DNA of 13,508 nucleotides, taken from NCBI GenBank assembly GCA_021157815.1, contig JAGGVT010000207.1, positions 1 through 13,508 of the forward strand. The letters are read 5' to 3'. The notes under the pieces were generated by a model that did not search any database, was not told where the DNA came from, and saw only the letters and a list, made by a program, of their open reading frames with translations. Shown one piece after another: positions 2,353-13,508 of this stretch. This DNA is from a bacterium. Its GTDB lineage: Bacteria; JAJVIF01; JAGGVT01. The translations under genes and the position numbers were made by a program. The first letter of the stretch is position 1; each line of letters starts with the position of its first letter.

Positions 2353-3354
2353 ATGCGTGTTGCATTGTTTGCGGCGGATGACTTTTCAATACAACTTTGC
2401 CGGTATCTTGCCGGTGAACACATGCTTGCCTGTCTGGTGACACAGCCGGATAAACCGCGCGGACGAGGCGGCAAAGTCTCGAAGTTGCCTGTCATGATTG
2501 AGGCGGAAAAACATAACGTGCCCGTGTTCATTCCCGATACGCTGAAAGATGAAAATTTTAAAACTGAGTTTAAATCAATTGGCGCTGATATCCCAATTAT
2601 CGCGGCGTACGGCTTGTTCATCCCGAAATGGATTCGTGGTTGGAATCCGTTTCCGTGTATAAATGTGCATCCATCGATTCTTCCCCGATGGCGCGGCGCT
2701 GATCCGATAAGAAGCGCTGTCATGGCAGGCGATACCAAAACCGGAGTCGCGCTTCATTTTACAAAAAAGAAAATCGACACCGGCGATGTTATTGTCACTT
2801 CGGATGAATATGATATTGATGCCAATCAAACCTTTGATGAACTGAAAAGCGCGCTGTCAGAAATTGCTGTTACGCTGGCCAGCGATTTTCTAAATAAACT
2901 CGCGCCTGTAAATATTTCAGATTACAAATCGTCCAAAGGGCATTCGGGAGAAAACGCGATACGAGAGCTTTTTAACTGCACAACTCAGGATGATTCAATC
3001 GCGACATATTCGCAGAAGCTGGATAAGCCAATGATGTGGATTAACTGGGACAAGCCATCGCGTGATGTGCATAACCTGATACGGGCGTTGTCATTACGTC
3101 CCGGCGCGCGAACCGGCAATCCGCAGAAACCACTGAAAATCCTTCGCTCTGAAATGGTGGAAGAAAGCGAATCCGCAGTGCCTGCAATGCCGGGTGAAAT
3201 TACAACAGCATCGCGTGATTCGCTTGTGGTATCCTGCTCTGATGGCTTGATTCGGCTTGTCAGTTTGCAGCCGGCGGGCAAGAGAATAATGGACGCTGCT
3301 GATTTCATTAACGGTTATCGAGTGAAACCGGGGACAAATATAACAAACTCTTGA
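2353..3354 (+). CDS. fmt: Methionyl-tRNA formyltransferase
   Basis: The enzyme transfers a formyl group from 10-formyltetrahydrofolate to Met-tRNA for translation initiation in the cytoplasm. The 333-residue protein has both expected domains. The N-terminal formyltransferase domain shows VTQPDKPRGRG (29-39), AAYGLFIP (84-91) and NVHPSILPRWRGADPI (104-119). The catalytic Asn104 and His106 are present, and Asp142 lies in the IDTGD motif. The C-terminal tRNA-binding domain includes VHNLIRALSLRPGA at about 237-250. ATG at 2353 has ggag at 2341-2344. The stop codon TGA (3352-3354) shares its A with the ATG of the next gene, which suggests translational coupling. No peptide deformylase gene (def), the usual partner, lies within the window. 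The region before the gene is repeat-filled, so fmt is probably the first gene of its transcript. Confidence 0.95.
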   Translation: MRVALFAADDFSIQLCRYLAGEHMLACLVTQPDKPRGRGGKVSKLPVMIEAEKHNVPVFIPDTLKDENFKTEFKSIGADIPIIAAYGLFIPKWIRGWNPFPCINVHPSILPRWRGADPIRSAVMAGDTKTGVALHFTKKKIDTGDVIVTSDEYDIDANQTFDELKSALSEIAVTLASDFLNKLAPVNISDYKSSKGHSGENAIRELFNCTTQDDSIATYSQKLDKPMMWINWDKPSRDVHNLIRALSLRPGARTGNPQKPLKILRSEMVEESESAVPAMPGEITTASRDSLVVSCSDGLIRLVSLQPAGKRIMDAADFINGYRVKPGTNITNS

Positions 3355-5342
3355 TGGATAAAAGCAATATAAAAAATGCTCCCCCGCTTCTTGGGCGTTA
3401 CCGCCTCCTGAAGGAAAAATCGGGCATTTCAGCTTATCGCTCCTTTCTTGCTTTTGACCTTAAACTCAAGCGCGGTGTTGTGGTCAAACTGATTTCAGTC
3501 GAGCGATTTCAAAAAAAGCACTTGCCGATTCTGTGGAAATATGTCGAGAAAGCGTTTCGCAAAGAGGAAAACATAAGCCGTATAGTCGAAATCGATTTCC
3601 AGAAAGACAGCCTTCTGGTTGCCGAGGAATATCTTGAGGGCCGTTATTTCAACAGCATGATTTTTGAAAATCCCCATGAATACGACAGGTTCGAATCAAT
3701 TCTGTACCGCTCGGTTGGCTTGGTAAAGAAAATCCATTCAAACGGCATTCCGCATGGATTCCTTAATTTCCGCAATTTGAAGCTCACGCAGAATGACGGA
3801 GTCATTATTGAGGACTACCCGATTCTTCACTGGCTCGAAATGAACAATCTGCTTCCGGGCGATGTTGTTCCAAACAGGGAATTCAAGGCTGAGGTACGGG
3901 ATATGAGACAGCTCGGGCTGATTTTATTCAACCTGTACAGAACGCAGCTTGTGCCTGAGTTTCATTCGTTTCCAAGGAAATATTCACGCAGGGATATCTA
4001 TGATTTTTTCCGAAACAATTCGTTTGCGTATTTCAGTGATGTCGAGCGCATAGTCGCAAAACTCCTCCTAGGCGGTGAACAGCCGAAGGGATATATATCA
4101 ATAAATGAGGCGTTCAGGGAGGTAAAGGAAAATATTGGTGTTCTGCCACCAGCGGTTTATGTGCGCGGGAAAATAAAGCAGTTTGACAAAATTGATGCAA
4201 CACAGGCTGTCAAGCAGACAAAGTCGATTTCAACATCAGAGAAAAAAACGCGTGATTTCGCCCAGCAGCTCGGCAAGCCTGTCGAGATGCCTTATCCAGA
4301 TGAACAAACCGCAGCGGAAACTCCAACTCACGAAGATGCGGCATACCCGCAAAAACCCGAGATATATTCCATGCGCGAACTTGTCAGGGAAAAACTCATG
4401 TTCCGGGGTGTGGCGTGGCTGGCTCTGTTTATAAGCATTATCACGATTGCCCTCACTCTCCTTGTGATAACAAAAGGATTCATGGCGACATCTATCCCGG
4501 AAATTGTAACTCCTGATTTTGTTGGACTGAGTTTCGATGAAGCTGAAAGTAGAGCTAAGAAAAACGGTTTGAAATTGCAAATCAGCTCGGAGGAATATCA
4601 CGATGAACTTCCAGAGGGCCTTGTAATCGAACACCAGCCACAGGCAGGCGCAAGAACCAAGCGCGGCAGAACTGTTTATACAATTCTGTCAAAAGGAGTC
4701 GCCGTGGTTAATGTTCCGAATCTTATCAGCCATCAGGAGGATGAAGCAACCAGTGTGCTGTCTTCTGTCCAGCTTAATGTTGGGCGAAAGGAATATGAAT
4801 TCAACGAGGATGTTGCACTCGGAATCGTCGTGGACCAATATCCGCCACCTAATGTAAAAGTCGCTGTGGGTGAGAAAGTGAATCTGACAATATCAGCCGG
4901 ATTGCTGAAAAGCACCATTCCAATGCCAAATCTTGAGAGCATGTCGCTTAACGAGGCTTTGACTTTCCTGGATCGAAAAAGGCTCAGAGTGAGAAGAATA
5001 ATCCGATCATATTCGGATTATTATGAGCGTGACGGAGTGCAATATCAAAGCCCGGCTGCCGGTGCGGAGGTCGAGTTCGGCATGATGGTTGACCTGGAGG
5101 TTGTCATGCCAAAACAACTTATGCCTATGGAGGGTTTTCAGGTGGCGCTTACCGTGATGCTCCCGGACTACGATGGCAGGAAACGCGTTAAAATAATCGA
5201 CAAGAATCAGAAAACGGAAAAAACCATTTATAATGAATTGCACAAAGGGCGTGAAATGATTTCGCTCCTCGCTGAAGGATACGGAAGAACGAACTTGAAA
5301 GTATATCTGGATAACGAGTTAATCAGGGAAGAGGTATTTTGA
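3354..5342 (+). CDS. Membrane protein with pseudokinase-like domain and three PASTA domains
   Basis: From ATG 3354 the protein has 662 residues; a TTG one codon earlier is less likely. Residues about 10-270 resemble a Ser/Thr protein kinase fold. GRYRLL is followed by no glycine-rich loop. A VVVKLI Lys45 is in the ATP-lysine position. The HRDxKxxN stretch reads HGFLNFRN from residue 134, so the catalytic Asp is replaced by Phe, and DFG reads DYP from Asp154. It is thus probably a pseudokinase. One membrane helix follows (about 352-378), then three PASTA repeats (about 385-450, 453-522 and 524-592), each ending in a beta strand plus SKG- or SAG-like turn, and a C-terminal extension of about 65 residues. 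The architecture copies PknB/StkP-type wall-sensing kinases, in which PASTA domains bind muropeptides or beta-lactams outside the membrane. In several deltaproteobacteria a PASTA protein sits close to fmt, though without an obvious kinase domain in those I recall. The function is inferred, not shown. Confidence 0.8.
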   Translation: MDKSNIKNAPPLLGRYRLLKEKSGISAYRSFLAFDLKLKRGVVVKLISVERFQKKHLPILWKYVEKAFRKEENISRIVEIDFQKDSLLVAEEYLEGRYFNSMIFENPHEYDRFESILYRSVGLVKKIHSNGIPHGFLNFRNLKLTQNDGVIIEDYPILHWLEMNNLLPGDVVPNREFKAEVRDMRQLGLILFNLYRTQLVPEFHSFPRKYSRRDIYDFFRNNSFAYFSDVERIVAKLLLGGEQPKGYISINEAFREVKENIGVLPPAVYVRGKIKQFDKIDATQAVKQTKSISTSEKKTRDFAQQLGKPVEMPYPDEQTAAETPTHEDAAYPQKPEIYSMRELVREKLMFRGVAWLALFISIITIALTLLVITKGFMATSIPEIVTPDFVGLSFDEAESRAKKNGLKLQISSEEYHDELPEGLVIEHQPQAGARTKRGRTVYTILSKGVAVVNVPNLISHQEDEATSVLSSVQLNVGRKEYEFNEDVALGIVVDQYPPPNVKVAVGEKVNLTISAGLLKSTIPMPNLESMSLNEALTFLDRKRLRVRRIIRSYSDYYERDGVQYQSPAAGAEVEFGMMVDLEVVMPKQLMPMEGFQVALTVMLPDYDGRKRVKIIDKNQKTEKTIYNELHKGREMISLLAEGYGRTNLKVYLDNELIREEVF

Positions 5343-5956: not shown

Positions 5957-6068
5957 TTCTACCGCACTATATATAATTATTAGTAGTTCTGGCATCTAAT
6001 GAACTTGGAGGATTATGTGAAAAACTAATCCTTCATTAACAATACACTTACTCACTTTGGAGTTGGAA
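5957..6068 (+). promoter_or_regulatory. Leader of the second M48 gene: candidate -10 and a stem-loop
   Basis: A TATAAT lies at 5972-5977 with a poor -35. Further on, aggatta (6009-6015) pairs with taatcct (6026-6032) over ten bases. The left arm overlaps a perfect Shine-Dalgarno ggagg (6007-6011), which is followed by ATG-TGA at 6015-6020 and by GTG at 6017 with only three codons, so it serves no gene of useful length. The true ribosome binding site is ggag at 6059-6062. Confidence 0.35.
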
Positions 6069-6944
6069 ATGAGAACTTTCTTAAAAGCAGGGCTTGTAAT
6101 ACTTGTTAATTATGCTTTCTGGGTTTTTATTTTCTGGGCAATCTGTGAAGCTTTTGGGGTTGGACTGATTGGGGCTGCAATCGGATTTTTGATTGCGACC
6201 AGCTGTATTTTGTTCGCTGTTTATGGCCTTAAGTATGCGATTATGAAAGACCTGGAGGCTACTCGCGTAACAGGGGGAGCCTATGCGGATGTGAATCGAA
6301 TAATTGCTGATATGGCTTATAAAGAGGGATTGCCAAAACCTGATGTTTATGCTGCCAATGTATTCGCTCCGCACGCGATGTCAATTGGAACCAGCATGCA
6401 ATCCATGTCTCTTTTTGTCACAAAGGGGTTGGTTGATAAACTTAATGAGGATGAATTGAAAGCCTATATCATGCACGAATTGGCTCATTTAAAAAGAGGG
6501 GATCACGTTGCGGCCGATATCGGCGCAGCGGTTGCGTATTTCCTTTTGTTTCCAACAAGGATTTTCGATTCGATAAACGATGGCGAGAACGTTGGTAAAG
6601 TGCTTGCAATGCTAATCTTTGGGCCTTTCGCAGCGATATTTGTCCAGTTGGGCGCCTATCGCGCTATCGATTATGAAGCTGACAAGTTCGCAGCGCAAAT
6701 ACACGGACAGGGTTATTCGCTGGCATCTGCCTTGAATACGGGGCAGAAAGATATCCGAAAGCATCCTATTAAAGTTCCTCTTTACTGTGCGCATCTCTTT
6801 ACAGTCGAGCCGATAACAACACAAACACAGTCTGGAGCGCTGTTTATTACTCATGTTCCCACGCCGAAACGAATGACAAGATTGAAAAGGCTGGGCAAGA
6901 AAATAATAAAGAAAGCAATCTACAAGAAAAAGGGAATAACATAA
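6069..6944 (+). CDS. HtpX-like M48 membrane metalloprotease, second copy
   Basis: This 291-residue protein is a divergent HtpX relative. The zinc site is intact: HELAH at 136-140 and Glu203 in IDYEADKFA. The block MSLFVTKGLVDKLNEDELKAYI before the HELAH motif parallels the equivalent stretch of the protease at 193-1098. Hydrophobic segments lie at about 5-27, 31-55, 145-163 and 177-197, matching HtpX topology. The C-terminal HPP signature is altered to FITHVPTPKRMTRL, and the tail is strongly basic (KKIIKKAIYKKKG). ATG at 6069 is chosen over a TTG at 6057 because ggag (6059-6062) sits six bases before it. The role is probably membrane-protein quality control, with a substrate range different from the first copy. 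The gene stands alone between the zinc-ribbon gene and a terminator. Confidence 0.88.
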   Translation: MRTFLKAGLVILVNYAFWVFIFWAICEAFGVGLIGAAIGFLIATSCILFAVYGLKYAIMKDLEATRVTGGAYADVNRIIADMAYKEGLPKPDVYAANVFAPHAMSIGTSMQSMSLFVTKGLVDKLNEDELKAYIMHELAHLKRGDHVAADIGAAVAYFLLFPTRIFDSINDGENVGKVLAMLIFGPFAAIFVQLGAYRAIDYEADKFAAQIHGQGYSLASALNTGQKDIRKHPIKVPLYCAHLFTVEPITTQTQSGALFITHVPTPKRMTRLKRLGKKIIKKAIYKKKGIT

Positions 6945-7436: not shown

Positions 7437-7484
7437 ATGCTGACAGGAATTTTGAAGCGCCTAAAAAAGAAGGGAAGGAAATGA
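7437..7484 (+). CDS. Possible 15-codon basic leader peptide
   Basis: The frame from ATG 7437 encodes MLTGILKRLKKKGRK and stops at TGA 7482-7484, overlapping the ATG of the LolA-like gene as ATGA. Seven of its last nine residues are Lys or Arg. The ribosome binding site is poor (gga at 7425-7427). The overlap would allow translational coupling, but the basic codons may simply reflect the purine-rich ribosome binding site of the next gene. This is a weak call. Confidence 0.15.
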   Translation: MLTGILKRLKKKGRK

Positions 7485-8275
7485 TTAATACTACTTCAAT
7501 GAAACATATTCGATTGGTGAAAGCAGGCACGATTCTATGCCTGTTCCTGCTCGCAATCGCTTTCCAAACCGCGACAGCGCAATCATCAGAATTAACCGCC
7601 GATGAAATCCTCGACAAAGTGGATGACCTCTACCGCGGCGATTCATCTCAAGGCACGATGACCATGACAATTAAAACCGAGCACTGGACACGCGAACTGA
7701 CCCTTGAATACTGGAGTCTGGGAAAGGAAAAATCACTGTTCAGAATTCTCGCGCCAAAAAAGGAAAAAGGAACCGCAACCCTGAAATGCGACAGGGATAT
7801 CTGGAATTACCTTCCCAAGGTTAACAGAACAATCAAACTACCGTCCTCGATGATGTCGCAGTCATGGATGGGAAGCCATTTCACAAACGATGACCTTGTC
7901 AAGGAATCACGTTTCACCGATGATTACACATTCGAGAAGAGTTTCGACGGTGAGCGGGATGGGCAGAACATTATCGAAATAACATGCATTCCTCATGAGG
8001 ATGCCGCTGTTGTCTGGGGCAAGGTGATTGTCATTGTCGAGCAGGATTCTTTCATTCCGCTTGAAATCAGCTATTATGATGAAGACATGGAACTGGCAAG
8101 AACAATGCGATTCAGTGATGTCAAAGATATCGGTGACAGAAAGCTGCCCGTTTCCATGATTGTGATTCCAGCTGACAAACCTGACGAGTCAACTGAAGTG
8201 ACTTATGATGAAATTAATTTCAACGTGGAAATCGATGAGGAATTTTTCTCTTTACGGAATTTGCAGGACAGATAG
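7481..8275 (+). CDS. LolA-like periplasmic outer-membrane lipoprotein-sorting protein
   Basis: This 264-residue exported protein belongs to the LolA-like 'outer membrane lipoprotein-sorting' group (COG2834-type). A signal peptide covers about residues 1-33: a basic start, the hydrophobic core TILCLFLLAIAF, and a probable cut after ATA. The mature part opens with ELTADEILDKVDDLYRG. Family-like features follow: repeated beta strands, LKCDRDIWNYLPKVNRTIKLP at about 103-123, and the block MMSQSWMGSHFTNDDLVKES, like the 'FMGSDFSYEDL' stretch of the group. Such proteins form a half-barrel that holds an acyl chain in the periplasm. ATG 7481 has an agggaagg purine run just upstream. Two ABC permeases and an ATPase follow in the same direction, so it probably accepts the ABC transporter's cargo. 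It is not classical LolA, which is shorter and lacks the WMGS block. Confidence 0.82.
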   Translation: MINTTSMKHIRLVKAGTILCLFLLAIAFQTATAQSSELTADEILDKVDDLYRGDSSQGTMTMTIKTEHWTRELTLEYWSLGKEKSLFRILAPKKEKGTATLKCDRDIWNYLPKVNRTIKLPSSMMSQSWMGSHFTNDDLVKESRFTDDYTFEKSFDGERDGQNIIEITCIPHEDAAVVWGKVIVIVEQDSFIPLEISYYDEDMELARTMRFSDVKDIGDRKLPVSMIVIPADKPDESTEVTYDEINFNVEIDEEFFSLRNLQDR

Positions 8276-8323
8276 GTATTTATTGGAAACAAGGGACTTA
8301 AACCGCTTGTCTCTCAATTATCG

Positions 8324-8350
8324 TAACCCGGCGTCCCTTCGCCGGGGTTA
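8324..8350. repeat. aacccggc hairpin repeat, first copy
   Basis: taacccggcg (8324-8333) pairs with cgccggggtta (8340-8350), with one bulged G over a six-base loop. It lies in the 99-base gap between the LolA-like gene and the first permease and has no T-run, so read-through is likely. A close copy is at 11609-11635. The two flank the permease-permease-ATPase block. Confidence 0.6.
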
Positions 8351-8374
8351 TGAAAGGTGGATAGAACGTATTAA

Positions 8375-9595
8375 ATGTTAAGCATACGACTGGCATGGCG
8401 AAATCTCTGGCGAAACAAGCGGCGTACATTAATTACGCTTCTTGCGCTGGCTGTGAATACCGCGGTGTTGATTACAACATTTGCTCTCATGGACGGTTAT
8501 ATTGAAAATGCCGTTCGTTATGCCACAGACCTTCTAACCGGTGAAGCGCAGATTCACGCTAATGAATATCTCGAAGACCATTCCTTATATAAAACGATTG
8601 ATAATCCAGATGAGATAATCGCAAAAGCCAAATCGCATGGGATTAACGCATCGCCCAGGGTTTACGGTTTTGGGCTTCTGTCTGTTGGAAATAAATCTGC
8701 CGGTGTAATGTTTGAGGGAGTTAATCCTGAACTCGACAAACAGGCGTTCACACTGCATGAACACTTGCAGGGGGATGGCCGGTTTGTTTCAAACAAAGCT
8801 GACAAGGGAATGGTGCTGGGGAAGAAACTCGCGAAAACGCTTAATGTAAAAATAGGCTCGGAAATAATCGCGGTCGTTCAGGCAGCGGACGGCTCACTTG
8901 GAACAGACATTTACACGGTATCAGGAATTCTTAAAACCGCGGGTGAAAAACTGGACCGCTCAACCGCCATTTGCCACATTGATGACTTCAGGGAATTGTT
9001 TGTAATGGAAAATGCAGTACATGAGATAGCCCTTAATTCATTCAGAGGTGTCGAACTGGAGGAAATAAAGCCACTACTGGGAACGACGATCGATGGTCTT
9101 GAGTTTAAAACATGGCGACAGCTTAATCCGTCGCTGAGTCAAATGGTTGATATGTCGCATGTCGGAATGGGGATATTCGCAACGATTTTTTTCATTGTTG
9201 CAGGGCTTGGCGTGATGAACACAATGCTCATGGCAACTTATGACCGCATCAGGGAATTTGGAATCCTCAAAGCGATTGGAACATCACCGATGGCAATAAT
9301 CAGAGACATTCTTGTTGAGGCAATGATGATGAGCGTTATTGCAATCTGTATTGGATTTGTGCTCGGACTCGCCACTTCATATTACCTTTCAATACACGGC
9401 ATCGACATGAGCGGCGTTGGCGGTGATGTTACCTTTGCGGGGATTGCGTTTGACCCAATCTGGAAAGCTGTTATTCATCCTGCATCCTTTATCGAGCCTA
9501 TGGCCATGATGTGCGTGATTTCAGTTCTGGCATCTATTTATCCCGCAGTTATCGCCGCGAGATTAAAGCCCGTGGAGGCAATGAATCATGTGTGA
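8375..9595 (+). CDS. FtsX/MacB-type ABC transporter permease, first
   Basis: The 406-residue inner-membrane permease has the LolC/E and MacB plan. One N-terminal helix (about 18-39) is followed by a large periplasmic domain (about 40-260), then three helices (about 265-286, 312-337 and 371-393). The cytoplasmic loop after the second helix reads YDRIREFGILKAIGTSPMAIIRDIL, the FtsX-family coupling region that contacts the ATPase. The N-terminal LAWRNLWRNKRRT is typical of this group. Such permeases are mechanotransmitters that extract lipids or lipoproteins from the outer leaflet instead of passing solutes through a channel. The start ATG has aggtgg at 8355-8360, rather far away. The gene lies 18 bases before a paralog. 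Together they should form the heterodimeric membrane part of the transporter. Confidence 0.88.
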   Translation: MLSIRLAWRNLWRNKRRTLITLLALAVNTAVLITTFALMDGYIENAVRYATDLLTGEAQIHANEYLEDHSLYKTIDNPDEIIAKAKSHGINASPRVYGFGLLSVGNKSAGVMFEGVNPELDKQAFTLHEHLQGDGRFVSNKADKGMVLGKKLAKTLNVKIGSEIIAVVQAADGSLGTDIYTVSGILKTAGEKLDRSTAICHIDDFRELFVMENAVHEIALNSFRGVELEEIKPLLGTTIDGLEFKTWRQLNPSLSQMVDMSHVGMGIFATIFFIVAGLGVMNTMLMATYDRIREFGILKAIGTSPMAIIRDILVEAMMMSVIAICIGFVLGLATSYYLSIHGIDMSGVGGDVTFAGIAFDPIWKAVIHPASFIEPMAMMCVISVLASIYPAVIAARLKPVEAMNHV

Positions 9596-9613
9596 TACGA
9601 GGAAACCTGCATA

Positions 9614-10846
9614 ATGAAAATGATTGCAAAATTAGCGTGGCGAAGTGTCTGGCGAAACAAGCGTCGAACAATAATCACCGTTGTCTCGATTGGTTTCGGA
9701 CTCGCAGCGGCTTTGTTTTTTATCACTTTTGCGGATGGCCAATATCAGAAGATGATAAATGACAGTGTCAGGATGCAGGCGGGACACATTACGCTTGAAC
9801 ATCCTGAATACCGTGATGCCCCCGCTGTTGACCTGTTTGTAAATGATTCAACTGATATACGTCGTGAAATCGAGAAACTGCCTGATGTTGAGAAAGTAAA
9901 ACTGCTGGTGACAGGACAGGGCGTCGCGCGAAGTGGCTCCGGCGCTGTCGGAGTCGGGTTCTTAGGCGTTGAACCGTCGCTGGAGATTCAAACATCACCC
10001 CTGGCGAAAAAAATAATCAAAGGTGAATTTCTTGATGATGAGGACAAACGCCATGTTGTTATCGGCAGTGTGCTGGCAAAGCGCTTGAAACTGGATATTG
10101 GCAAGAAAATGGTTCTTTCGACAAATGATGTTAACGGCAACCTGGTCGAGGAACTTTGTCGTATTAAGGGTATATTCTCAACAGGCTCTGATGAGACAGA
10201 CGGTTTTTTCATCCTCGTTCCAATTGCATTTGCACGAGGTTTGATGCAGCTTCCTGAGGATGCCTCAACACAGATTGGAGTTATTCTGGAAAAACAGGAA
10301 AAAATGAAGCAAGTTCAAAAACAGATTTGGAACATGCTTGGAAGCAGGGATATCGTTGTTCTCACCTGGCAGCAGGTCATGCCTGATTTAAACGCTTTTA
10401 TAAAAGTTGACGGAGGGTCAAATCTTGTTTTCCAGGGAATTATTCTTACTCTGGTTCTGTTCACGATATTCAATACAATCCTTATGTCCGTGCTTGAACG
10501 AAAGCGGGAATTCGCGGTACTGCTCGCGCTTGGAACATCCCCGAATCTTCTTCAGGCGCAGGTTATGATGGAGTCGGTTTTTCTTGGGTTAATCGGAGTG
10601 TTCATCGGAACTGTGGTCGGTGGGGCGATCACGTGGTACTACTCGATTCATGGATTGGACTTCAGCGAAATGATGACTGAGAACATGACCGTTTCAGGAA
10701 TGGCTTTCGATCCAATTATTTACACCCATTTGACTCCAGGCGTTTTCATTATTTTAGGCTCGATTGTTTTTATTGCGACTGTTCTCTTAAGTGTATTTCC
10801 AATGCGTCGCGCGGCGAATACGCCTATCAGCGACGTTTTGCGATAG
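9614..10846 (+). CDS. FtsX/MacB-type ABC transporter permease, second
   Basis: This 410-residue paralog of the preceding gene has the same plan: helix about 20-41, a periplasmic domain to about 268, and helices at about 271-292, 321-343 and 375-397. Shared signatures are LAWRxxWRNKRRT at the N-terminus, RxREFxxLxAxGTSP in the coupling loop, and SIHGxDxS followed by GxAFDPI before the last helix. The resemblance shows an old duplication. It would pair with the first permease as LolC pairs with LolE. gagga at 9599-9603 serves ATG 9614. The ATPase starts 17 bases after its stop, so the three genes form one transcript. Confidence 0.88.
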   Translation: MKMIAKLAWRSVWRNKRRTIITVVSIGFGLAAALFFITFADGQYQKMINDSVRMQAGHITLEHPEYRDAPAVDLFVNDSTDIRREIEKLPDVEKVKLLVTGQGVARSGSGAVGVGFLGVEPSLEIQTSPLAKKIIKGEFLDDEDKRHVVIGSVLAKRLKLDIGKKMVLSTNDVNGNLVEELCRIKGIFSTGSDETDGFFILVPIAFARGLMQLPEDASTQIGVILEKQEKMKQVQKQIWNMLGSRDIVVLTWQQVMPDLNAFIKVDGGSNLVFQGIILTLVLFTIFNTILMSVLERKREFAVLLALGTSPNLLQAQVMMESVFLGLIGVFIGTVVGGAITWYYSIHGLDFSEMMTENMTVSGMAFDPIIYTHLTPGVFIILGSIVFIATVLLSVFPMRRAANTPISDVLR

Positions 10847-10863
10847 GAATTCAGGAGATAAAC

Positions 10864-11571
10864 GTGGACAAAATAATCAACATAAATAACGTTATAAAAG
10901 ATTACGGACAGGGCGATGTCATTGTCCACGCACTGCGGGGAATCACCCTTTCACTCGAATGCGGTGAATTCACATCAATGGCAGGCCCCTCAGGATCAGG
11001 CAAGAGTACGCTTCTCAATATTATTGGCGGACTCGACAAACCTACAACGGGATCTGTCGAGGTTGATGGCAGGGATGTTGTATCAATGTCAATGGCTCAG
11101 TTAAGCCATCTACGGCGTAACCGCATCGGGTTCATCTTTCAGAATTACAGCCTGATTCCCGTACTAACAGCGTACGAAAACGCTGAATACATCCTCGTTC
11201 TGCAGGGCGTTTCAGCGAAAAAAAGAAATGAAAGGATAATGGATATTCTGAAAGAAGTCGGACTCGACGGCATGGAAAACAGATTCCCGCGCGAACTCTC
11301 AGGAGGCCAGCAGCAACGTGTCGCAATCGCAAGGGCAATCGCGCCGGAGCCGGCACTGGTACTCGCGGATGAACCGACAGCGAATGTCGATTCAAAAACC
11401 GGCGGCGCTCTCATGGATTTAATGCGCAAACTCAACGAGGAAAAGGGAATCACTTTCCTTCTCTCCACTCATGAGAAAATAGTCATGGAGCGCGCGCGAC
11501 GCCTTTTTGTATTAAAGGACGGACTAATTGAATTCGACGGTTCACCTAAGGAGGGAATTAATATTGCCTAA
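10864..11571 (+). CDS. ABC transporter ATP-binding protein of the LolD/MacB type
   Basis: The 235-residue cytoplasmic ATPase powers the two permeases encoded just upstream. All nucleotide-binding motifs are present: Walker A GPSGSGKST (41-49), the Q-loop in FIFQNYSLIPVLTAYENAEY, signature LSGGQQQR (145-152), Walker B LVLADEPT (165-172) with catalytic Glu170, and H-loop His203 in LSTHE. The wording LIPVLTAYENAEY and ADEPTANVDSKTG is typical of the LolD/MacB/FtsE-like subfamily that works with FtsX-fold permeases. The start is GTG at 10864, supported by aggaga at 10853-10858. It is the last gene of the operon before the hairpin region. The length equals that of LolD (about 233). Confidence 0.93.
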   Translation: MDKIININNVIKDYGQGDVIVHALRGITLSLECGEFTSMAGPSGSGKSTLLNIIGGLDKPTTGSVEVDGRDVVSMSMAQLSHLRRNRIGFIFQNYSLIPVLTAYENAEYILVLQGVSAKKRNERIMDILKEVGLDGMENRFPRELSGGQQQRVAIARAIAPEPALVLADEPTANVDSKTGGALMDLMRKLNEEKGITFLLSTHEKIVMERARRLFVLKDGLIEFDGSPKEGINIA

Positions 11572-11606
11572 TGCTGATTAAAACTTTTGCTGGCATCACA
11601 GGAATT

Positions 11607-11684
11607 TGTAACCCGGCATCCCTTTGCCGGGGTATTGGCTGCCCATCTCTTTCATTTTCCCGGTTAATGAGAAGCCGGGCTACA
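11607..11684. repeat. aacccggc hairpin repeat, second copy, in a larger inverted repeat
   Basis: A hairpin at 11609-11635 (taacccggca with tgccggggta) nearly repeats the one at 8324-8350. A second hairpin, cccgg (11659-11663) with ccggg (11675-11679), follows. The outer ends tgtaacccggc (11607-11617) and gccgggctaca (11674-11684) are inverted with 10 of 11 matches. It lies between the convergent ATPase and lipoprotein genes and could slow transcription from both sides, but there is no T-run, so it is recorded as a repeat and not a terminator. Confidence 0.55.
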
Positions 11685-11704
11685 TAAAATCTTTGAATTA
11701 TATT

Positions 11705-12796
11705 CTAATCATCACCAAGCGGAATATCCTCAATTGAGATCAAATATTCCTCAGGTATCTTGATATCTATAAGATTATCGCTCGTGATAATTGGTGATGA
11801 TTTATCAAGCGTATCAAACATGGTTTGATCAAAAGCGCACTCAGATGTCAAACCACCTGTGCTGCGGTATTTATCCAGGCTTCCATAAACGACACAGTGT
11901 TTAATATATCTTTCATCATCAATGATAAGTTCAAAGTACCTCGTATTGCCATCGAAACCCCATTTGAAAGAAGCGCCTGAATCTTTCAGCATTTGTGCGA
12001 AAGCCTCGAAATTCTCCTTGATTATGAAACTGCGGTTGTCCAATACATCGTAAAAGGATTCCGGTAAAACCTCATCATAGACATAATGCCGGTTAGTTGA
12101 AGCATTAATAATTGTTTCAAGATTGCCAGCCATCGCACAAAGAAGTCTTTTATCATAATCCTCAATTTCCTCAGGTGTCTTTGTTGCTCCCATTAAGTGC
12201 ATTTTCCATCGTTTTATTTTTGTGCCCTCGTCCTGTTTATCAATCCTGCGGTGAATAATTGCCGGATTATATTCATATACCGGTGCAGCTTCAAACCATG
12301 ATTCCTTACCAGTATCTAAATAATTATTCCAATCCAGATAAACGCATCTCAAACTGAATTCTGAGTCGTTGATTACTTCATACTTGAATGAGCCGAAATC
12401 AGAACGGTCTTTAATTAGATCCCGTCCTGTAATAACCTCGACTGGTTTCCCGGTCATTGGATTTCTGGGCCAATATAAAAGAAAACCATTTTTGACAAGA
12501 GTGGAAAACGAGTCGGGAAAACTCCCGTTCACATCCTTATAAAGGTTGATTTCATGAAAAAAAGATACAATATCCAACCAGGAACAAACTGTAGCTAAAT
12601 CAGTACTTAATGGAAATTCCATTTTCTTGAAATCAAATGCCTGTCCTTCTCTTTGAATTAAGGGGGCTTCAGTAACTGAACCCTTTAACTCGGCATTTGG
12701 CTTAACAGCCCTTGGTGATGAGGAACAACCGGCTAAAAAAATAAATACTAATGCGACTAATAAGATAGAAGCTGCCCGAAAATATTCTTTCCTCAT
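11705..12796 (-). CDS. Secreted lipoprotein of unknown function
   Basis: From the ATG whose complement is at 12794-12796 the protein has 363 residues. This start is preferred to one five codons earlier because aggtg sits six bases before it. A signal peptide (MRKEYFRAASILLVALVFIF) ends in the lipobox LAGC with Cys24 as the lipidated residue. Ser follows at +2 rather than Asp, which favours outer-membrane sorting if the E. coli rule holds. After a low-complexity linker, the mature part includes a stretch like the C-terminal half of type II pseudopilins: YKDVNGSFPDSFSTLVKNGF, then a YWPRNPMTGKPV segment, as in 'YxxDNGxYPxxLxxLV...DPWGxPY'. There is no pilin N-terminal helix. The rest is not recognised. 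It lies convergent to the ABC operon and divergent from the porin-like gene. Confidence 0.75.
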   Translation of the reverse strand: MRKEYFRAASILLVALVFIFLAGCSSSPRAVKPNAELKGSVTEAPLIQREGQAFDFKKMEFPLSTDLATVCSWLDIVSFFHEINLYKDVNGSFPDSFSTLVKNGFLLYWPRNPMTGKPVEVITGRDLIKDRSDFGSFKYEVINDSEFSLRCVYLDWNNYLDTGKESWFEAAPVYEYNPAIIHRRIDKQDEGTKIKRWKMHLMGATKTPEEIEDYDKRLLCAMAGNLETIINASTNRHYVYDEVLPESFYDVLDNRSFIIKENFEAFAQMLKDSGASFKWGFDGNTRYFELIIDDERYIKHCVVYGSLDKYRSTGGLTSECAFDQTMFDTLDKSSPIITSDNLIDIKIPEEYLISIEDIPLGDD

Positions 12797-12965
12797 GATT
12801 GCACCTGTCATGTCAATTTATTTCATATCGACAACTAAAAAATAAAAAGAGTCTTGTCAAGCTCTTTATGCTTTTTCGATAAAACCAAACTGTGTTAATA
12901 TACAAGTCCGGTATGTCGGATTACTGGGAAATCTGACCTTTTTTAAAGATATTTAGGATTTAATC
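12797..12965. promoter_or_regulatory. Divergent promoter region, lipoprotein and porin-like genes
   Basis: This 169-base AT-rich gap must carry both promoters. For the plus strand, an extended -10 (tgt then taatat at 12896-12901) and an alternative pair, ttgtca (12854-12859) with gataaa (12878-12883) at 18-base spacing, are visible. On the minus strand, ttgaca overlaps the same cttgtcaag near-palindrome, but no good -10 lies at the right distance. The porin-like gene has agga at 12955-12958. Confidence 0.35.
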
Positions 12966-13508
12966 ATGAAAAATATTGTTTGCATAAATCGATTTATTCC
13001 TGTAATGATTTTCTCCATCATCCTGTGTTTCGCGTTTATTACAGACGCGCACGCGGAACAAAGCAATCCCTTTGACTCATGGTCGGGACGTATCAGCATC
13101 CAGACAACAGGCGCAGATAACAAGAGGTTCGGCGAGCAATTTGAAATTTCCCAGAGTTTGCTTCTAAGGCTGATTAGAAATCTCGAAATAAACGATGAAA
13201 CCGATTTGGAAATACATTTGCTCAACGGGTTGAAATTATCGACCATGGATAATCCGTTCAGCGATATGCTTTTCTCGTTCGCCCCTGAAAATCTGCGATA
13301 CCGATGCTTCGACATGACATGGGAAATCCTCGATGAATCCGCTACTTCAATGTTCTTCTCCGTTGACAGGCTGAACGCGCGATTTACACTGCCCGATGCG
13401 GACATCACAATCGGGCGCCAAGCGATTACTTTCGGCAAGGCGTGGTTTTTCAATCCGCTCGACAACTATCTCCCATTCGATTCCGGCACTGTTGACCGCG
13501 ATTACAAA
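12966..13508 (+). CDS. Porin-like outer-membrane beta-barrel precursor, partial
   Basis: The frame is open to the window end (181 codons seen), so the C-terminus is missing. A signal peptide covers residues 1-30, with a hydrophobic core and a cut after AHA. The mature part has alternating hydrophobic/polar strands separated by charged turns (for example GRISIQTTG, SLLLRLIRNLEIN, TDLEIHLLNGLKL and SMFFSVDRLNARFTL). These are followed by IGRQAITFGKAWFFNPLDNYLPFD, which resembles the 'GRQxxxWGxxxxxNPxD' block of large single-protein barrels such as the DUF1302 or alginate-export type. ATG 12966 is supported by agga seven bases upstream. By position it is the likely outer-membrane partner of the LolA-like/ABC genes, though two intergenic regions and an opposite-strand lipoprotein gene separate them. 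The exact barrel family needs the missing sequence. Confidence 0.68.
   Translation, partial: MKNIVCINRFIPVMIFSIILCFAFITDAHAEQSNPFDSWSGRISIQTTGADNKRFGEQFEISQSLLLRLIRNLEINDETDLEIHLLNGLKLSTMDNPFSDMLFSFAPENLRYRCFDMTWEILDESATSMFFSVDRLNARFTLPDADITIGRQAITFGKAWFFNPLDNYLPFDSGTVDRDYK

Follow-up and report, generated by a model that had tools for sequence, protein, structure and literature searches.

Five neighbouring genes in a bacterial genome, coding for a LolA-like periplasmic carrier, two FtsX-type permeases, a LolD-like ATPase and an outer-membrane barrel, are more probably than otherwise parts of one dedicated ATP-driven trans-envelope exporter, with a hydrophobic and probably non-lipoprotein cargo. 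The genes lie on the plus strand of the 13,508-bp stretch analysed here (the window), which is the entire contig C138 (JAGGVT010000207.1) of a source genome (assembly GCA_021157815.1) of 3.2 Mb in 221 contigs, 91% complete. A dedicated route between the two membranes had been put forward in an earlier, sequence-only reading of the window, which counted a lipoprotein among its parts. The carrier, the permease pair, the ATPase and the barrel are borne out as a unit of fixed order in many phyla, while the lipoprotein falls outside it.

Chance does not account for the clustering of carrier, permeases, ATPase and barrel. In distant genomes, the neighbourhoods of the closest homologues repeat the order carrier–permease–permease–ATPase–barrel, which spans at least eight bacterial phyla, being seen in Aminicenantes, Bacteroidota, Balneolales, Poribacteria, Zixibacteria, Elusimicrobia, Calditrichia and Proteobacteria. 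Named genomes were scanned with the carrier alignment, which gave 80 loci picked by carrier similarity alone, and the count was restricted to the 59 loci with at least 5.5 kb of downstream sequence; in 57 of these, the permease(s), the ATPase and the barrel are found on the same strand within 8 kb of the carrier, usually contiguously, as judged for the barrel with a profile built without the counted loci. The barrel mostly starts between −7 and 200 bp from the ATPase or the last permease. Of 59 distant genomes, 29 have the carrier and 29 the barrel, and 26 have the two together (Fisher p 2.5e-10, with shared ancestry ignored), and 37 of the 51 barrel places in these genomes are within 8 kb of a same-strand carrier. 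Variants of the arrangement include a single permease in relatives from the same class (L048, L049), an ABC–permease fusion (L050), a gene for a CAP-domain protein that separates ATPase and barrel in one marine member of Bacteroidota (L131:13946–14605) and a gene with FG-GAP repeats that follows the carrier in one genome of Poribacteria (L127:11394–13013). In Bacteroidota and Aminicenantes, TetR-family regulators (PF00440) stand directly upstream of the carrier (L079, L086, L090 and L131), and that of the Aminicenantes locus L086 has a further match, to TetR_C_4, a YsiA-like C-terminal family. Cultured hosts of the operon exist in Colwellia, Marinospirillum, Pontibacter, Echinicola and Draconibacterium.

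The carrier (7481–8275, 264 amino acids, with a signal peptide ending ATA-Q) matches PF17131, LolA_like, in Pfam with 179 bits against a cut-off of 30 (E 8e-53). Its WMGS block, already noticed in the sequence-only reading, corresponds to W129–S132 and is invariant in 56 of 56 aligned homologues. The NCBIfam model LolA3_fam (NF053579) gives 16.1 bits, below the cut-off of 83, and PF03548, LolA, matches neither the carrier nor any other protein of the source genome. In the AlphaFold model (predicted local distance difference test, pLDDT, 92) the carrier adopts a predicted LolA-type half-barrel, for which the best solved fold is P. gingivalis LolA3 (9tp6; Z 27.4, root-mean-square deviation 2.0 over 223 residues). 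The structures 4z48, 3bk5 and 3buu are also near (Z 25–27), and canonical LolA and LolB are farther away (Z about 12–13). LolA3 of P. gingivalis has a hydrophobic groove (PMC13103446), and by homology to it a similar greasy groove can be expected in the carrier.

Both permeases, the first at 8375–9595 (406 amino acids) and the second at 9614–10846 (410 amino acids), contain FtsX (PF02687) and MacB_PCD (PF12704) domains above cut-off and have four transmembrane segments each by a hydropathy count. With the matching ATPase at 10864–11571 (235 amino acids, GTG start, ABC_tran 3e-36), these features identify an ATP-binding cassette (ABC) transporter of type VII, i.e., MacB-like, so that the paired permeases and LolD-like ATPase expected from the earlier reading are indeed present. 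The solved relatives nearest to the permeases are LolF, LolC and LolE, the first permease matching LolF (9w37) with E 1e-20 and the second LolC (7arh_C) with E 1e-13; because of this relationship, the mechanism may resemble that of Lol. Against the LolCE model TIGR02212 the permeases score 126 and 111 bits, respectively, with a cut-off of 362, and the ATPase, for which LolD is the top NCBIfam model, scores 212 bits against LolD TIGR02211, under the cut-off of 307.75. In E. coli LolC, the Hook comprises about residues 168–178 with P174 at the apex, and is essential for LolA recruitment (PMC10865981). The loop at the Hook position has 26–27 residues in both window permeases, compared with about 32 in LolC, and the PMG tip is absent. 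On the basis of sequence alignment only, a loop of 26 or 27 residues, 5–6 shorter than in LolC, is found in 55 of 55 homologous permease pairs. In the first permease a QGYHG or QGADGS motif recurs in this loop (loci L074–L153), which makes the loop a candidate docking site for the carrier; the motif is not seen in the second permease in the alignment rows displayed.

The barrel gene (12966–13508) runs off the contig edge after its N-terminal 181 amino acids, and the fragment is recognized by the family profile A2 with E 1.4e-43. The sequence-only reading had asked for the sequence beyond position 13,508 to complete it. The C-terminal half lies at the edge of another contig of this genome, C151 (locus L065; profile A2, E 7.9e-21), although the two contigs are not joined. 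The C151 piece covers barrel model positions 255–397, ends SEFGSYPNVIYAELMYYF with terminal MYYF, and is followed by a DUF362 gene. Because the pieces on C138 and C151 cover complementary parts of the model, they probably represent one gene split by an assembly gap. The full-length homologue L152 (pLDDT 91; predicted template modelling score, pTM, 0.87) is predicted to fold like the OprD/AlgE porins, with Z about 24–25 to OprD/Occ porins and 22–23 to AlgE over about 300–328 aligned residues, a likeness of fold only, with sequence identity near 10%. Porins of the OprD/Occ and AlgE types are 18-stranded. A barrel of Omp85 type, as in Borrelia, was considered as well; none is among the fold matches listed for L152, an absence that by itself excludes nothing. 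At the sequence level, the window fragment has no match to DUF1302 (PF06980) in Pfam, and barrel homologues reach 14–19 bits against a gathering score of 23.2; only the more distant barrel of L061 reaches DUF1302 (37 bits), and the carrier there has no adjoining matching permeases or ATPase. A Pfam search with the barrel returned weak DUF1302 and Wzi signals only, and a profile search against solved structures returned no match. The signal peptide of the barrel is ordinary and its C-terminal residue is aromatic, as in clients of Bam. The source genome encodes Omp85, and therefore has an outer membrane.

The lipoprotein that the sequence-only reading had regarded as a possible cargo or receptor is encoded between the ATPase and the barrel. 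The gene and its lipobox, FLAGC, are present at 12811–11705, but the strand is corrected to minus (11705–12811 in forward numbering), and neither role is supported. The gene runs opposite to both its neighbours, toward the ABC genes and away from the barrel, and so cannot be transcribed together with the system. No homologue occurs in 100 related neighbourhoods and essentially none in 58 other genomes, whereas paralogues occupy at least ten places in its own genome, including contigs C37, C143, C149, C56, C9, C159, C51 and C187. None of these can lie beside a second copy of the operon, because the genome has one PF17131 gene above cut-off. We therefore rejected the lipoprotein as a member of the system; it is a bystander at this locus, particular to the source lineage, and is most simply read as an insertion specific to that lineage, which parts the ATPase from the barrel. 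Of the two families whose usual distance from the ABC genes would have spoken against the earlier reading, the barrel keeps company with these genes and the lipoprotein does not. The lipoprotein has no Pfam or NCBIfam match, and its N-terminal part resembles, by eye only, pseudopilin-like 'NGSFPDSFSTL' text. Between ATPase and lipoprotein, a dispersed intergenic repeat (11602–11692), likewise outside the system, marks the disrupted ATPase–barrel junction. Its hairpin, GTAACCCGGC...GCCGGG, occurs at 11608–11631 after the ATPase and again at 8323–8346 in the gap between carrier and first permease, and BLAST finds dozens of similar places in the genome, like an intergenic family of the repetitive extragenic palindromic (REP) or miniature inverted-repeat transposable element (MITE) type.

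In the proposed exporter, the LolA3-like half-barrel would carry the cargo over the periplasm in its greasy groove, and the OprD/AlgE-like barrel would take it at the outer membrane and release it outside or into the outer leaflet. The cargo may be a lipid, a glycolipid or another apolar compound, and is probably not a protein. Export of such a cargo is preferred because of what is known of RND-linked relatives, because of the YbbAP-TesA precedent and because of the TetR genes. A related carrier–barrel pair is found beside an RND/MMPL pump instead of an ABC transporter at L052, L058 and L060, where MMPL was confirmed. Two further loci taken as RND-linked from helix number were discarded, since the many-helix neighbour at L053 is a spermine-synthase-domain protein and the scanned neighbour at L059 is an MFS transporter. 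Experiments tie systems of the RND-linked kind to apolar compounds: AmeABCD is linked to monoterpene tolerance, and its deletion mutant accumulates more Nile Red (PMC6394551), while TOL_3187/3188 is linked to the n-C28 long-chain alkane (PMC6304351). YbbAP-TesA demonstrates that extraction by type VII ABC transporters is not confined to lipoproteins but can extend to other hydrophobic molecules (PMC12646458). The upstream TetR genes are more in keeping with an inducible exporter than with a lipoprotein route of the housekeeping kind, and in P. gingivalis an operon of TetR, MMPL and LolA-like genes is strongly induced at low iron or hemin (PMC10434189, PMC10470040). From the gene families, their conserved order and the modelled folds we infer that the products interact physically, which way they transport and what kind of cargo they move. 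Some points weigh against the export of a non-lipoprotein cargo. The fold of the barrel is that of the homologue L152, the window gene being split by the contig gap. Furthermore, the source genome has no PF03548 LolA and no LolCE match better than the window permeases, none of them above cut-off, and the operon might serve lipoproteins in this organism.

The last point leads to a Lol route, in which the permeases would extract acylated proteins, the LolA-like protein would carry them, and the barrel or the carrier would replace LolB; in its strongest form the operon could be the sole lipoprotein route of the source genome. The nearest solved relatives of the permeases and the best NCBIfam model of the ATPase agree with such a route, the class relatives G001–G003 also lack PF03548 LolA, and for the similar Borrelia set BBJ23–BBJ29 a possible lipoprotein cargo was suggested by the authors (PMC13078400). 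We nevertheless regard it as unlikely, and rejected membership in canonical Lol, since the PF03548 cut-off and, by a wide margin, those of LolCE and LolD are missed, and the Hook loop, essential in E. coli (PMC10865981), is short in every permease pair. Several hosts of the operon (Marinospirillum, Roseateles, Colwellia and G043) have a canonical system as well, recognised by a PF03548 LolA and by LolCE scores that pass the cut-off. P. gingivalis LolA3, a distant relative of the carrier, binds its own LolB weakly (PMC13103446), and deletion of lolA3 in F. johnsoniae left gliding and amylase secretion unaffected (PMC11885536). The most complete class relative, G002 (99%), has neither carrier nor barrel, and the operon is therefore not indispensable in the class. 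The earlier idea of an acylated-protein cargo moved by a LolCDE mechanism is weakened by the missed LolCE and LolD cut-offs, the short Hook loop and the coexistence with canonical Lol. The operon also suggests that the label 'outer membrane lipoprotein-sorting protein', given to many PF17131 proteins, is misleading for the carrier subfamily.

Transport in the opposite direction, where the barrel would admit a hydrophobic compound that the carrier and the ABC transporter move or modify at the inner membrane, is improbable. OprD/Occ porins are uptake channels, and they are the nearest folds of the barrel, but AlgE, also near, is an exporter. TOL_3188, which adjoins an MMPL–LolA fusion, was interpreted as an alkane uptake porin (PMC6304351); by contrast, deletion of AmeABCD lowers tolerance and raises dye accumulation, as expected for export (PMC6394551). 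The characterised type VII ABC transporters, such as LolCDE and MacAB-TolC, take their substrates out of the inner membrane or drive them outward, and YbbAP extracts for hydrolysis (PMC12646458). The strict linkage of carrier and barrel could also mean that the LolA-like protein and the ABC transporter help to assemble the barrel, which would then be a client and not an exit, and Lol-dependent delivery of an outer-membrane protein via a lipoprotein pilotin has been proposed in work cited in PMC6304351. We give this very little credence, because the signal peptide and C-terminal aromatic residue of the barrel are those of ordinary Bam clients, Omp85 is present in the genome, and the operon has no conserved lipoprotein resembling a pilotin. 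Outward transport of a hydrophobic, probably non-protein cargo is thus the reading that we retain.

Elsewhere on the contig, positions 193–1098 and 6057–6944 encode two HtpX-type M48 membrane metalloproteases, of which only the former reaches an HtpX equivalog cut-off. The protein encoded at 3351–5342 has three PASTA repeats and a kinase-like N-terminal half; this half has no kinase match in Pfam, and the protein is possibly a pseudokinase.

Every part of the operon belongs to a known family. With LolCDE-LolA(-LolB) it shares a type VII ABC transporter whose permeases are paired, and a periplasmic carrier of half-barrel shape, but the carrier is of PF17131 and not PF03548, the Hook loop is shorter, the LolCE and LolD cut-offs are missed, and a porin-type barrel is nearly always adjacent, quite apart from the coexistence with canonical Lol in several hosts. 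LolA3, known from P. gingivalis and F. johnsoniae, supplies the nearest fold (9tp6), with 27% identity to the carrier, which itself scores far below the cut-off of the LolA3_fam model. As for RND systems of the AmeABCD type (HAE3) and TOL_3187/3188, the common feature is a LolA-type carrier beside a DUF1302-like or porin-type barrel. AmeABCD-type sets use a proton-driven RND/MMPL pump and two periplasmic proteins, AmeB being DUF1329 (PMC6394551), whereas in the window this place is taken by FtsX-type permeases with an ABC ATPase, and MMPL is found at other loci only. If this exchange of ABC and RND engines is real, carrier and barrel would form the core of a general export pathway. The aryl polyene genes ApeLMN likewise combine a LolA-like chaperone with a dedicated pump in a proposed delivery of lipid to the outer membrane, but the pump is of the RND type, a LolB-like protein is included, and the listed genes contain no porin-type barrel (PMC8253772). 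Routes to the outer membrane for apolar molecules beyond lipopolysaccharide and lipoproteins are poorly known, and the operon offers a compact five-gene unit for their study. In the open-access PMC literature, the scope of our search, there is no description of the five-gene ABC form as one system; as a sign of novelty this absence is weak. The published set that comes closest as a whole is BBJ23–BBJ29 of Borrelia, where a type VII ABC transporter, a LolA-like protein and an outer-membrane barrel are also clustered, and which is proposed to move a non-polar ligand from the inner to the outer membrane (PMC13078400). No extra conserved gene was found in the five-gene order, TPR domains not having been searched for. 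The Borrelia set has a single permease, which is homodimeric, together with two TPR proteins and a barrel of the Omp85 type (PMC13078400); the five-gene operon, in contrast, has two permeases and a barrel that resembles OprD and AlgE.

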